Shown here piece after piece: positions 40,770 through 45,962 of a DNA stretch of 64,000 nt (positions are counted from its first letter, which is position 1; the number at the start of each line of letters is the position of its first letter). Below the pieces are notes generated by a model that was given only the letters and a program-made list of their open reading frames with translations, made no database searches and had not been told where the DNA came from. This DNA is from Oceanicaulis sp. HTCC2633 (lineage in GTDB: Bacteria; Pseudomonadota; Alphaproteobacteria; Caulobacterales; Maricaulaceae), in assembly GCF_000152745.1 (NCBI RefSeq), contig NZ_CH672428.1:1629251-1693250 (forward strand), read 5' to 3'. The translations under genes were made by a program, and so were the position numbers.

Positions 40770-41282
40770 ATGACCCCGGTCACGCCTCACGCCGCCAGCA
40801 CCGCCGCTCGGGTTTCCGATTTTGCGGATTCCGAAATGTTCCGCCGTCTGTTCCGTGACGGCATGGATCTGGTGGAGGAAACTGCGGCCTATCTGGATGG
40901 CCCCGGCCGGGATGACGCCAAGCGTCTGGGCCGCTCGGGCGCGTTGGCATATGCGTCTGAATCCATGGGGCTGACCACCCAGCTGATGCAATGCGCGTCC
41001 TGGCTCCTGACCCAGCGCGCCGTCGCCGAGGGCGATATGAGCCCGCGCGAAGCCGCCGAGGAGCGCTATCGCCTCTCGCCCAACAAGTTCAGCCCGCCGA
41101 CCTGGCCGGCCGGGGATGATCCCTGTCCGCCGCGCCTCGGGGATCTGGCGCTGCGCGCGCGCGAATTGCATGAACGTCTGATGCGCCTGGACGACTCGCT
41201 GTTCGAGGCCGAGCTCAAGCCGGTCGAGAACCCGGTCGCCAACCAGCTCTCCCAGCTCTCGGCCGCCTTCAGCGATAGCTAG
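40770..41282 (+). CDS. rcdA: DUF1465 family protein, RcdA-type protease adaptor
   Basis: This 170-residue helical protein has the DUF1465 core FRRLFRDGMDLVEETAAYLDG, YASESMGLTTQLMQCASWLL and ALRARELHERLMRLDDSLFE, with a disordered C-terminal tail. Caulobacter RcdA belongs to this family and, with CpdR and PopA, delivers CtrA and other proteins to ClpXP at the swarmer-to-stalked transition. The tail is the known site of cargo control. The assignment as RcdA relies on family membership and the lineage. Confidence 0.85.
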   Translation: MTPVTPHAASTAARVSDFADSEMFRRLFRDGMDLVEETAAYLDGPGRDDAKRLGRSGALAYASESMGLTTQLMQCASWLLTQRAVAEGDMSPREAAEERYRLSPNKFSPPTWPAGDDPCPPRLGDLALRARELHERLMRLDDSLFEAELKPVENPVANQLSQLSAAFSDS

Positions 41283-41850: not shown

Positions 41851-42867
41851 CTAACGCGAGGTCAGTTTCAGTTCGATCCGCCGGTTGCGGGCATAGGCCT
41901 CCTGGGTCCGCCCCTCGGCAATGGGATAATGCTCGCCAAAGCCCGCTGCCAGCAGGCGACGCGGCGGCACGCCGCGGCTTTCGAAATAGGCGATCACCGA
42001 CAGCGACCGCGCCGTCGACAGCTCCCAGTTGGACTCAAACGGCGCGTTGGGCCCCAGCGGCACGCGGTCTGTATGCCCGTCCACGCGCAACACCCAGTCA
42101 AGATCATCCGGGATTTCATCTGTGAGCTGGATGATGGCGTCTGCGATGGGAGCAAGCGAGCGCCGCCCCTCCTCGCTCAGCTCGGCCGAGCCCGATGCGA
42201 AAAGCACGTCGGTTTCAAACACGAACCGGTCGCCCACCACGCGAACACCGGACCGATCGCCCAGGACCTCGATCAAACGGCCGAAGAATTCGGAGCGATA
42301 GCGCGCCAGCCGAGCCACTTCGCTCGCCAGGGCCGCATTGAGGCGACGGCCCAGATTGACCACTTCGGCCTCAAGCTCGGCCTCGCGCGCCTCGGAGGCG
42401 TTGAGCGCCTCATTGAGACGCGCCAGCTCTTCGCGCAGGGCCGCCATCTGATTGTTCAGAAGCGCAACAGTGGCCTGCGCCTCTTCATTGAGCGCCTCTT
42501 CCTCCGCCAGGCTGGAACGGGCGGCCGCGAGCCCCTCCTGCAGACCGGCGATCTGACTGGTCAGGCCGGCATTGGTTTCCGCCAAGGCGCCATTTTCCTG
42601 AGTCAGGGTGCTGACCCGCAGGCTGAGACGTTCATTCTCGCTCTGGGCCAGGTTCAGCTCTTCAGCCAGGGTCGCCAGACGTCCGTTGAGCTCGGCGAGC
42701 TGTTCGTCGCGGCCGGTCAGCGCCTGGGACAGCGCGAACTGGCCCGCCGTGAACACCGCCAGCAAGAAGACGATGACCAGAAGCAGCGTCGCCAGCGCAT
42801 CCACGAAGCCCGGCCAGTAATCGCCGGAGTCGGCCTGTCCGCTCTGCAGGTGCCGGGGGAGCGCCAT
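41851..42867 (-). CDS. MotB-like OmpA-domain protein with long coiled coil
   Basis: This 338-residue protein has one N-terminal membrane helix (about residues 22-45) with an Asp at its start (FVDALATLLLVIVFLL), as in MotB-type proton channels. A long coiled coil follows (about 50-190), then an OmpA/MotB peptidoglycan-binding domain (about 205-338, with LRVDGHTDRVPLG and RNRRIEL). It pairs with the MotA/TolQ-like protein upstream, with 3 bp between the genes. The coiled coil is much longer than in MotB. It is probably a non-flagellar stator complex of unknown task. Confidence 0.88.
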   Translation of the reverse strand: MALPRHLQSGQADSGDYWPGFVDALATLLLVIVFLLAVFTAGQFALSQALTGRDEQLAELNGRLATLAEELNLAQSENERLSLRVSTLTQENGALAETNAGLTSQIAGLQEGLAAARSSLAEEEALNEEAQATVALLNNQMAALREELARLNEALNASEAREAELEAEVVNLGRRLNAALASEVARLARYRSEFFGRLIEVLGDRSGVRVVGDRFVFETDVLFASGSAELSEEGRRSLAPIADAIIQLTDEIPDDLDWVLRVDGHTDRVPLGPNAPFESNWELSTARSLSVIAYFESRGVPPRRLLAAGFGEHYPIAEGRTQEAYARNRRIELKLTSR

Positions 42868-42870
42868 GGC

Positions 42871-43884
42871 TTACTCGTTCCGATCCGAACCGCGATCCCG
42901 GTTCAGGCGCGCCTGCGCCTCAAGCGCGCGCACCAGAACCTTGATCTCATCGCGCAGAAGCCGCGCGCTTTCGCGCTGGCTTTCCGCCGCATCATCCGCA
43001 AATCGAGCCATGATGGTTTCCAGCTGGCGCGTATGACGCTCCAGCGTGTGGGTCAGCCGGTCCAGCGCATCCGCGCTCTGCTCCAGAAGCGCGCCCACAT
43101 AGGCGCCCGAGCCGCCGCCCTCATCCGGGCTGGCGCCTTGCGGGCCGGCGTTGGCGAGGCGGGAAATCGAGGAGAGCCATTCCTCCACCTCGTTGTAGAA
43201 GCGGTTCTGCGCCCGGCTGGCCTGCAGCTCGAGAAAGCCGATGATCAAGGAGCCGGCCAGACCGAAGAGCGATGACGCGAACGCCGTGCCCATGCCCGCA
43301 ATGGGCTCCTCGATCGCGCTCATCAGGGCCATGGCGTCCGTTTCCCCGGCGCCGGTGGAGCTGGCGGACACCGCGCGCACGGCGTCGCCCACATTGCCCA
43401 CCACCTGCAACAGGCCCCAGAACGTGCCCAGCAGACCGAGAAAGATCAGCAGGCGCCCGAAATACCGGGTGAAGGCCCCGCTTTCCGCCATGCGGGCGGC
43501 GACCGAGTCCAGCACCACGCGAGCCGACGCCGCCGACAGGCGGGACCGGCCATCGGCCGCATCGGTGATCAGCGCCGCCATGGGGGCGATCATGGCGGGC
43601 GGGCTGGGCAGCTGGTCGGGGTGATCCGCCTCGTTCAGGCGCACCAGCCAGCGCGCGCTCGGCCCGATGGCGAGCGCCTGCTGGAAGGTGTAGAGGATGC
43701 CGATGAACAGCACGCCCAGGATCAGGCCATTAATGGCGGGGTTCGCCTCGAACGCCAGGATCAGCGGCTGGTTCAGGAGCGCGGCCAGCAGCACCACGAC
43801 CGCCAGGAACACGATCATCCAGAGAATGTAATTCCCGGGCCCGGTGAACCGGGCCTTGCGGCGCGAAGCTTTCGGATCAGCCAT
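42871..43884 (-). CDS. MotA/TolQ/ExbB-like proton channel protein
   Basis: This 337-residue membrane protein has helices near residues 20-40, 50-70, 148-170 and 200-220. The third and fourth hold FGRLLIFLGLLGTFWGLLQVV and GMGTAFASSLFGLAGSLIIG, the MotA_ExbB signature. A cytoplasmic loop lies between them and a helical tail of about 110 residues follows. With the OmpA-domain partner it should form a proton-driven stator-type channel. It is unlike the flagellar MotA at 1709. The pair is conserved in many alphaproteobacteria with no known function. Confidence 0.88.
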   Translation of the reverse strand: MADPKASRRKARFTGPGNYILWMIVFLAVVVLLAALLNQPLILAFEANPAINGLILGVLFIGILYTFQQALAIGPSARWLVRLNEADHPDQLPSPPAMIAPMAALITDAADGRSRLSAASARVVLDSVAARMAESGAFTRYFGRLLIFLGLLGTFWGLLQVVGNVGDAVRAVSASSTGAGETDAMALMSAIEEPIAGMGTAFASSLFGLAGSLIIGFLELQASRAQNRFYNEVEEWLSSISRLANAGPQGASPDEGGGSGAYVGALLEQSADALDRLTHTLERHTRQLETIMARFADDAAESQRESARLLRDEIKVLVRALEAQARLNRDRGSDRNE

Positions 43885-44105: not shown

Positions 44106-44468
44106 ATGCCGCTCAGACTGAAGCGTTGGACATACCGGATCAACCAGCACGACATCGTGCTGGAGTGCGGCTTCACATTGTGGGGCTGGGCGCAGGCGCG
44201 GCTTGTTGTGGACGGCGCCGAACTGGCGCACCGCAAAGGGTGCCGGTTCTGGCCGCTATCGCTTGAAACGCGGGTCGATGCTGCGCAGCCGGCCATGCCG
44301 ATCCGCGCCGTGATTACGCCCGGGCTTTTCAGTGTGCATAACGAGTTCTGGGCCCATGGCGTTCCGGCGGCCGCGCCGGACCGAGCCTTCAAGGGCTGGC
44401 TGGACGCGCCGCGCGGGAGCTGGCCTGACGCCGGACCCGCACGACGTTCCGCACAAGAACGCGCCTAG
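44106..44468 (+). CDS. hypothetical protein
   Basis: This 120-residue protein starts MPLRLKRWTYRINQHDIVLE and has about 100 residues of mixed beta character, with several Trp, then a Pro/Arg-rich tail. An AGGA lies 6 bp before the ATG. I do not recognise a family. It is a single rightward gene between two leftward runs, and its last 4 bp overlap the stop of the inositol phosphatase gene. Confidence 0.55.
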   Translation: MPLRLKRWTYRINQHDIVLECGFTLWGWAQARLVVDGAELAHRKGCRFWPLSLETRVDAAQPAMPIRAVITPGLFSVHNEFWAHGVPAAAPDRAFKGWLDAPRGSWPDAGPARRSAQERA

Positions 44469-45262
44469 CTGGCGGCTTTCGCCAGCATCTCGCGCAACTC
44501 CTTGATCACCCTCTCATTGCCGGCGGCGATATGGCCGGTCTCGAGCACATCGGTGCCAGGATCAATGGCGCCGGCGAAGCCGCCCGCCTCACGCACGAGC
44601 ACCAGGCCGGCGGCGATATCCCAGGATTTCAGATTGCGTTCCCAGAAGCCGTCAAACCGGCCCGCCGCCGTCCAGGCCAGATCGAGCGACGCTGCGCCAT
44701 AGCGGCGCACGCCGGCCGTCATCGGCATGATCTGGTGCAATTCCTTGAGGAACTGGGCGTGCCCCTTCTTGCCGAAGAACGGCATGCCGGTGGCGATGAC
44801 GCAGTCATGCAGGTCGCGGCGCTCGGCCACGCGCAGACGGCGGTCATTCATATAGGCGCCCCGGCCCTTCTCGGCGTGGAACAGCTCGTCGGTCGCGGGG
44901 TTGTAGACTACGCCCGCCACAATCTCGCCCTCGCGCTCCAGCGCCACCGAGATGGCGAAGTGCGGCTGGGCGTGCATGAAGTTCAGCGTGCCGTCCAGCG
45001 GATCAATGATCCAGCGGTGGGAGCGGTCGGTGCCTTCAACAACGCCGCGCTCTTCCATCAGGAAGCCATAGCCCGGACGCGCCTTGGACAGGACCTCAAA
45101 CAGGATCTCTTCAGACTTCATGTCGGACGCGGTGACGAAGTCCGCCGGGCCCTTCTTGGAGACCTGAAGGTTCTCGATTTCACCAAAGTCACGCGCCAGA
45201 CGGCGGCCCGCTTTGCGGACCGCGTCGGTCATGACCTGCATCAGTGCGGATACCTGAGCCAA
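44465..45262 (-). CDS. suhB: inositol monophosphatase family protein (SuhB-like)
   Basis: This 265-residue protein has the metal-binding motifs EERG, IIDPLDGTLNFMH (family signature, about residues 84-96) and KSWDIAAGLVLVREAGG near the C-terminus. These enzymes dephosphorylate inositol-1-phosphate with magnesium; E. coli SuhB also takes part in ribosomal RNA antitermination. The start is a TTG at 45262 with GGAG 6 bp upstream, overlapping the end of efp, which lies 3 bp away. The two form an operon. Confidence 0.92.
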   Translation of the reverse strand: MAQVSALMQVMTDAVRKAGRRLARDFGEIENLQVSKKGPADFVTASDMKSEEILFEVLSKARPGYGFLMEERGVVEGTDRSHRWIIDPLDGTLNFMHAQPHFAISVALEREGEIVAGVVYNPATDELFHAEKGRGAYMNDRRLRVAERRDLHDCVIATGMPFFGKKGHAQFLKELHQIMPMTAGVRRYGAASLDLAWTAAGRFDGFWERNLKSWDIAAGLVLVREAGGFAGAIDPGTDVLETGHIAAGNERVIKELREMLAKAAS

Positions 45263-45265
45263 GAT

Positions 45266-45832
45266 CTACTCCGCGCGACGGACGTAGGAACCGTCCTCGG
45301 TGGCCACCACGATGCGCTCGCCCACGCCCACGAAAGGCGGAACCGCGGTGCGCACATTGCCGGTCAGGATGGCGGGCTTGAACGAGTTCGCCGCCGTCTG
45401 GCCCTTGACCACCGGCTCGGTCTCAATGACTTCGAGCTCCACATGCTTGGGCAGCTCGATGCCGATCGGCTTCTCTTCGTAGATTTCCAGAACGACCATC
45501 ATGCCGTCGGTCAGATAGGCCGCACGGTCCTCGCCCACGAAATCGATGGGCAGATTGGTCTGCTCATAGGTCTCGGTGTCCATGAAAACCAGCATCTCGC
45601 CCTCGGGATAGAGGAACTGGTGGTCTTTCTGCTCGAGGCGCACGCGCTCGACCTTGTCCGCAGAGCGGAAGCGTTCATTGAGCTTGCGACCGTCGAGCAG
45701 GTTCTTCAGTTCGACCTGGGCGAACGCGCCGCCCTTGCCCGGTTTCACGTGATCCGCTTTCACCGCCACCCACAGGGTGTCCTGGTGCTTGATCACGTTG
45801 CCGGGCTTGATTTCATTGCCGTTGATTTTCAT
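45266..45832 (-). CDS. efp: elongation factor P
   Basis: This 188-residue protein has the three beta-barrel domains of EF-P. Residues 28-36 read HVKPGKGGA, with Lys33 at the position that is modified in many bacteria. EF-P enters ribosomes stalled at polyproline stretches and restarts peptide bond formation. The start at 45832 is fixed by homology; the frame is open to 45868. No epmA, epmB or earP gene is in the window, so any modification is unknown. suhB follows directly. Confidence 0.95.
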
Positions 45833-45962
45833 CGGAAGGTCCGTTCCTGGAACGGGCGCGCCGCACAAACCACCAGCGCCGCCCTGTAATTCAGCCGCGC
45901 TCGTTTAACAGGGAGACCCCTGACGGGCAAGCTGTGCGTCAGAATCCGCCCCGTCGCACACT

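Follow-up and report, generated by a model that had tools for sequence, protein, structure and literature searches.

Introduction

The closest described systems to the genes treated here are the flagellar stators MotAB and PomAB, the TolQR and ExbBD energisers, and the ZorAB core of Zorya. In the excerpted text of PMC12505986, homologues are split into a flagellar class, whose members have an OmpA-type domain and generate torque through an interface of four or five cytoplasmic helices, and a generic class with neither. Type III Zorya consists of ZorAB together with ZorF (DUF3348) and ZorG (DUF2894) (PMC8565338, excerpt), and the ZorB protein of Zorya likewise has a peptidoglycan-binding domain (PMC11890865, excerpt). 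Here we describe a pair of genes from Oceanicaulis sp. HTCC2633, denoted A and B, which lie at positions 41851 to 43884 of a 64,000-nucleotide stretch (the window; contig NZ_CH672428.1, positions 1,629,251 to 1,693,250). The pair is real, widely conserved, named only in part, and mechanically distinctive through a register-locked rod in subunit B. We give a probability of roughly 0.6 to the reading that it is a housekeeping, non-flagellar, wall-anchored, ion-driven stator-type motor, most likely of five A and two B subunits.

Subunit B and its coiled-coil rod

Both reading frames lie on the minus strand in the ORF list, with A first (337 aa, MotA/TolQ/ExbB-type, 42871..43884; recognised from the ORF list, profile search, alignment and predicted structure) and B second (338 aa, 41851..42867; ORF, NF006543 match and model). 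They are separated by 3 bp, and so the tight two-gene unit of the original prediction, a MotA/ExbB-fold gene followed by an OmpA-domain gene, is borne out. The single membrane helix, channel-type Asp and peptidoglycan-binding OmpA domain that it had ascribed to B are likewise all present. The OmpA domain (PF00691, about residues 208-338) scores 58.3 bits against a cut-off of 27.2, and its Asp267 and Arg287, which we take to be the wall-contact pair of OmpA, are invariant (32/32), pointing to a domain with the usual contact residues. Across its length B matches NF006543 (PRK09039, "peptidoglycan -binding protein") at 388.2 bits, above the curated cut-off of 305. B is therefore already held by NCBIfam as PRK09039, in an entry which names B only and gives no function.

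The structural model of B (mean pLDDT 79.9, below 50 for the first 21 residues) predicts one uninterrupted helix from residue 22 to 202, followed by the OmpA fold. Near the start of this helix is Asp23, presumably the ion-binding residue, with its codon at 42799..42801 on the minus strand (counted from the first position of the frame, 42867). Asp23 is invariant in two alignments (21/21 and 32/32). The motif around it is present in 73 of the 77 named loci, the Asp is kept by eye in three more, and in the remaining one (L087) the start of the frame had been misread. An Asp also occupies the channel position in 198/198 B proteins measured for rod length, a set selected by a motif that also permits Glu. 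Some genomes carry a second B: G131 has one beside A (L367) and another about 785 kb away (L366), and G233 and G015 each have two strong matches.

The rod covers about residues 43-202 of B (42262..42741, minus strand), as delimited by the model, its periodicity and the length statistics given below. Residues 46-195 have a hydrophobic heptad period of 3.53 residues (102 degrees), and 1 in 2000 shuffles was equally strong. The coiled coil that had been predicted in B is thus real, but the predicted length of about 140 residues was too short, as approximately 160 residues are periplasmic. With a helix rise of 0.1485 nm per residue this corresponds to roughly 24 nm if the rod is straight.

Rod length was measured from the Asp motif to the first conserved motif on the OmpA side, a distance of 188 residues in the window's own protein. 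It could be obtained for 198 of 208 B proteins (10 had no usable anchor), which form 141 clusters at 70% identity; the shortest rod has 149 residues and the longest 825. Taken modulo 7 relative to the window, classes 0 to 6 hold 100, 3, 0, 19, 13, 3 and 3 clusters respectively. One class therefore holds 100/141 against 20 expected, and a further 32 clusters lie at +3 or +4. The chi-square p-value is about 1e-79, inflated by shared ancestry, and none of the moduli 5, 6, 8, 9, 10 and 11 reaches p<0.05. To account for shared ancestry, reciprocal nearest pairs by OmpA domain were compared. Rod length differed in 12 of the 44 pairs, seven times by multiples of 7, five times by 3 or 4 modulo 7, and never otherwise. 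Length changes of 7 residues, or shifts by 3 or 4, can be accommodated in a continuous coiled coil. The pattern of steps therefore suggests an uninterrupted coiled coil whose length drifts while its register is held, and on these length comparisons the rod of B is best read as one continuous, register-locked coiled coil. This register lock, held across a range of 149 to 825 residues, is new in this analysis.

Subunit A and its relatives

Alone, A matches PF01618 weakly (18.9 bits, below the cut-off of 22.9), and 20/22 members of its alignment match the family at E<=0.01. The structural model, of one monomer (mean pLDDT 87.4; numbered one below the gene, the first codon being omitted from the alignment), has four predicted membrane helices in a MotA/TolQ-type fold. 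These comprise a TM1-TM2 hairpin and long TM3 and TM4, with only two short cytoplasmic helices (72-84 and 96-109) between TM2 and TM3, and a C-terminal helix at 258-335 which gives a helical tail of about 80 residues. The membrane topology of both subunits is a prediction from the models. Thr154 in TM3 and Ser205 in TM4 are invariant in 22/22 sequences and, numbered one lower, in 40/40. We take them to be equivalent to the polar ring of TolQ, ExbB and PomA, and together with Asp23 of B they would form a conserved set of channel residues. The tail of A has two conserved islands, the second of which is a loose tip motif found in 100/140 proteins and missing from the A protein of Sinorhizobium meliloti. 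In the heptad test the tail shows no lock like that of B. Its lengths cluster near 140-147 residues, which explains the modulo-7 spread that is seen (p 0.0013).

A search of PDB sequences gave no match for A alone and one for the A profile (E 0.33, an unrelated protein), and Foldseek returned nothing for the A model at E<=0.001. In direct structural comparison the model gave Z values of 12.5 and 12.2 with TolQ, 11.4 with ZorA and 10.6 with MotA, which fit the fold class and cannot choose a family, because helical bundles reach such values by background. Profile-profile comparison (hhalign) ranks type III ZorA (ZorA3, DUF802) first at 96.9, over 74 columns, followed by the gammaproteobacterial family f172 (90.7 over 232 columns), TolQ (53.8), ExbB (51.5), two other Zorya-like profiles (41.9 and 40.5) and two MotA profiles (34.1 and 30.6). 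Set against the PADLOC models, the pair matches ZorA at 4.6e-13 and ZorB at 2.1e-24; a comparison with ZorAB had been suggested in the original prediction.

For the tree, 122 rows were thinned to 99 (98 different). A (30 rows) falls on one side of a branch with SH-aLRT support of 99, as does MotA (11 rows, 99), and TolQ/ExbB (28 rows) is separated with support of 94 (not starred). In this tree A stands as a separate clade, apart from flagellar MotA and from TolQ. A placement inside the flagellar MotAB or TolQR clades thus did not occur, nor did a loss of the channel Asp among the relatives, and the reading of the pair as stator-like and non-flagellar stands. A and type III ZorA (11 rows) share a joint branch with SH-aLRT 91 (not starred). 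The ZorA3 label rests on PADLOC scores of 815-1113 bits for the three rows, of the 11, that were scanned, the others being chosen by length, match to the A profile and a B beside them. A clade of A with MotA, when forced, is not rejected (p-AU 0.519), and long branches meet in this tree; the deep branching order, including the relation to the flagellar stator, is accordingly tentative. ZorA at the curated cut-off occurs in only 1/299 genomes of the phylum sample, and Zorya I and II are therefore thinly sampled in the tree.

Several related families were seen in passing. Some lineages (G374, G320, G317, G296) carry several very large ZorA-like proteins, in frames of 1000-2865 aa and below the Zorya cut-off, and L205-L215 hold pairs of DUF802 (ZorA3) with a PRK09040-type protein. 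The two-gene family f172 (L216-L219, L223, L224; for example L217:4123-5904, minus, and L223:4963-6875, plus) resembles the pair: its A-type protein has about 330-350 aa, and in the three loci for which ORFs were listed a one-helix B (about 260-276 aa) is encoded next. It differs in that its B is not found by the pair's B profile at E<=0.001 and in its gene neighbours, and the one f172 pair tested had no NCBIfam match at E<=1e-6.

Distribution and gene neighbourhood

In a sample of 289 alphaproteobacterial genomes (A at E<=0.001, B at E<1e-15) A was found in 188, and both genes were found in 182, A only in six, B only in three and neither in 98. The pair thus proves to be conserved together across the class, mostly within one gene block. 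Where a named locus has both genes, they lie within -4 to +67 bp of each other in 73/77 cases. In G103, G209 and G254 only one B was found, in a stretch that lacks A; the A of these genomes sits on a different contig and likewise stands without a neighbouring B. Partnership can therefore survive the loss of adjacency, and co-occurrence across the 289 genomes demonstrates that A and B are close partners at the level of the genes. Both are kept in nine genomes of 0.7-1.0 Mb; a PF01618 search of ten small A-bearing genomes gave another strong match, apart from A, in nine. Beyond the class, five genomes in three families (f189, f201, f214) gave strong matches.

Comparison with FliG shows that the pair is independent of the flagellum, as far as gene content can tell. 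No association was found (table 114/74/56/45, Fisher p 0.45), and 74/188 A-bearing genomes have no FliG_C match, a count which does not factor in genome completeness. The window itself has a separate flagellar motA near 1.7 kb, as had been predicted (TIGR03818, 385 bits, cut-off 303.8).

The pair mostly sits inside a conserved housekeeping block, efp-suhB-A-B-rpmE. The neighbourhood set consists of 80 loci, 79 of them named plus the window; many are cut by contig ends, and L099 was dropped as a second copy of L095. Near A, ORF clusters were B (78 loci), suhB (58), efp (53), thiE (32), gap (27), an ABC transporter (21), rpmE (19), fba (19), RcdA (15) and pgk (13), the names of clusters that were not scanned being read from their sequences or from the annotated record. 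No recurrent partner gene beyond this block was found near the pair in the 80 loci. In S. meliloti the order is thiamine phosphate synthase, sel1, inositol monophosphatase, "MotA/TolQ/ExbB proton channel family protein" (A), "peptidoglycan -binding protein" (B), an ABC protein, rpmE and DUF1465.

In the window, a suhB-like inositol monophosphatase gene (44465..45262, minus strand; family search) lies upstream, a conserved neighbour outside the motor. Further upstream is an ORF at 45266..45868 (minus strand), which from its sequence we take to be elongation factor P-like. Downstream are rpmE, for ribosomal protein L31 (41436..41768, minus strand), and RcdA/DUF1465 (40770..41282, plus strand), both recognised by family search. 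These flanks agree with the earlier remark that no flagellar, Tol, ExbD or Zorya gene stands beside the pair. Between suhB and A, on the plus strand, is an ORF of 120 aa (44106-44468). A scan around the pair gave no match to a sigma-70-type promoter and carries no weight either way.

Comparison with described systems

With Zorya the pair shares a two-gene motor core, an OmpA-type wall anchor, an Asp in the B helix and a helical cytoplasmic tail on A, and the core of a ZorA-ZorB-type pair with channel Asp and OmpA-type domain is present. It differs from Zorya in that the long rod belongs to B here and to A in Zorya, the tail of A being about 80-160 residues rather than a rod of several hundred as in ZorA, and in that the pair sits mostly at a fixed housekeeping locus. 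None of ZorC, ZorD, ZorE, ZorF and ZorG was recognised among the pair's neighbours (of the flank genes, PADLOC was run on RcdA only), and DUF2894 has no match in the window's own genome. The DUF3348 search found no match in any control genome either and is not evidence of absence. A standard Zorya system was rejected on the pair's housekeeping neighbours and the absence of a DUF2894 match in that genome.

The flagellar stators MotAB and PomAB share with the pair the fold, the channel Asp and the OmpA-type peptidoglycan domain, but A lies in a separate clade and the pair is present without FliG. According to the excerpt of PMC12505986, MotAB and PomAB have the torque interface, which A does not have, and a plug and flexible linker where the pair has the rod. 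Against the two classes given there, the pair has the OmpA domain and does not have the torque interface. A flagellar accessory was rejected as a candidate, on the missing FliG association, the two short cytoplasmic helices and the separate clade. TolQR and ExbBD share the fold of A, a short cytoplasmic part and polar residues in TM3 and TM4. In contrast, A lies outside their clade and the pair's B carries an OmpA rather than a TolR/ExbD domain; no ExbD family is listed for B in the domain search, and no third Tol- or Ton-like component was recognised nearby. Membership of the Tol/Ton systems was rejected on the OmpA domain and the separate clade of A. The remaining comparison is with PRK09039/NF006543, of which the B protein is a member above the curated cut-off.

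Traces of the pair in Brucella

In the Brucella literature, the same block can be followed by its tags. In B. abortus thiE is BAB1_1719, efp 1722 and rpmE 1728 (PMC2877026), and an inositol phosphatase is BAB1_1723 (PMC5587712). BAB1_1725 is labelled "Flagellar motor protein MotA, important for virulence" and BAB1_1726 "COG1360 Flagellar Motor Protein", both are listed as BvrR-P targets, and the flagellar motB is listed separately as BAB2_1103 (PMC9491525). BAB1_1726 is also among the serodiagnostic antigens tabulated in PMC2864264, and PMC2946783 predicts it to be a vaccine target, calling it hypothetical and placing it under cell motility. By gene order, and not by sequence comparison, BAB1_1725 and BAB1_1726 are the B. 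abortus orthologues of A and B, and in these excerpts the pair is apparently mislabelled as flagellar. Virulence credited there to the flagellar motor may belong to this pair. The study cited on the virulence of BAB1_1725 is reportedly the infection work of Tian et al. from 2019.

A proposed wall-anchored motor and its alternatives

The energising ion and mechanical role of the pair are what we infer here, by analogy with its relatives. In a stator-type motor, the ion path would run between A and Asp23 of B, and the flow would turn a ring of A around the B pair (A5B2). The stiff rod of B would tie the B pair to the cell wall and remain stationary, which would leave the ring of A, together with its helical tail in the cytoplasm, to move, as in ZorAB. 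The load may be a cytoplasmic partner or the wall itself. The favoured role is maintenance or monitoring of the envelope, given that this is a housekeeping pair, found also where flagella are absent and, going by the Brucella excerpts, targeted by an envelope regulator. Most likely it energises or monitors the cell envelope. BvrR is an envelope-response regulator which we take to correspond to ChvI, and the pair would perhaps act under a regulator of this type.

Several observations weigh against such a motor. Its stoichiometry, ion flow and rotation are carried over from relatives. Straight rods of up to 825 residues exceed the periplasm, so that a simple upright shaft fails as a description of all members, and those with long rods would have to tilt or bend. 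The tail of A, the putative moving part, is not heptad-locked as B is, and in the window it is shorter than most. Of the 188 A-bearing genomes, six have no B at E<1e-15; the A matches in G089, G094 and G204 are weak and G074 is 67% complete, leaving G006 and G237 unexplained. A was not found in any of the nine same-order genomes sampled, and the pair is therefore dispensable in some kin; Maricaulis and other near kin carry it. No experimental study of the pair as a complex was found in the open-licence literature, among the matches listed.

A possible though distinctly less probable alternative is a sensor of wall state, in which the pair is mainly a gated ion channel or transmitter. The pull of peptidoglycan on the rod would open the channel or move the A tail and so signal inward, with little mechanical output. 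A stiff, register-locked rod that ends in a wall-binding domain would suit this role, as would a helical tail with two conserved islands and a loose tip motif, and the listing of the Brucella genes as BvrR targets (PMC9491525, excerpt) is consistent with it. However, no recurrent cytoplasmic partner is found nearby, the tip motif is absent from S. meliloti A, and the free variation of rod length in whole heptads is not what a length-calibrated gauge would lead one to expect.

It is unlikely that the pair is a stand-alone antiphage device, that is, a relative of Zorya without the usual effector genes. The nearest A profile and the sister branch in the tree, both type III ZorA, and the PADLOC matches of the two subunits speak for this, although the profile score covers few columns. 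Against it are a mostly constant housekeeping location, presence in about two thirds of the class genomes, retention in genomes below or at 1.0 Mb, the short tail, neighbours among which none of ZorC to ZorG was recognised, and a genome with no DUF2894 match.

Somewhat more improbable still is a Tol- or Ton-like energiser, which would drive an outer-membrane process via an unlinked third protein. The short cytoplasmic part is like that of ExbB/TolQ-type subunits and the best structural matches are to TolQ, within reach of the helical background, whereas B carries an OmpA domain in place of a TolR/ExbD domain, the genome has a separate TolQ-type gene, and no TolA/TonB-like gene was recognised among the neighbours.

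The Brucella name motA implies an additional or accessory stator of the flagellum, which is very improbable: the annotations as MotA and COG1360 (PMC9491525 and PMC2864264, excerpts) and the forced clade of A with MotA allow it, but A has a clade of its own and two short cytoplasmic helices only, FliG has no match in many A-bearing genomes, and the window has its flagellar motA elsewhere.

Significance

Returning to the wall-anchored motor, a wider and more speculative view, which we hold tentatively, is that it is an ancestral, vertically inherited motor of the Alphaproteobacteria. An ion-driven A ring would turn its tail against a wall-anchored shaft whose length changes mainly by whole coiled-coil turns, so that its membrane end and its wall end keep their angular phase. 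Zorya would on this view have arisen from such housekeeping wall motors as a branch used in defence, and the infection phenotype of the Brucella 'motA' would be due to this motor instead of the flagellum.

The pair is carried by 182/289 of the alphaproteobacterial genomes sampled, a rhizobium included, and we found no function assigned to it. If the motor reading is true, a housekeeping member would be added to the short list of MotAB, TolQR, ExbBD, Zorya and the gliding motors. It would also be an exception to the generalisation, as given in the excerpt of PMC12505986, that an OmpA-type domain is missing from non-flagellar homologues, and its rods would offer a natural length series for testing how a motor is coupled to the cell wall.

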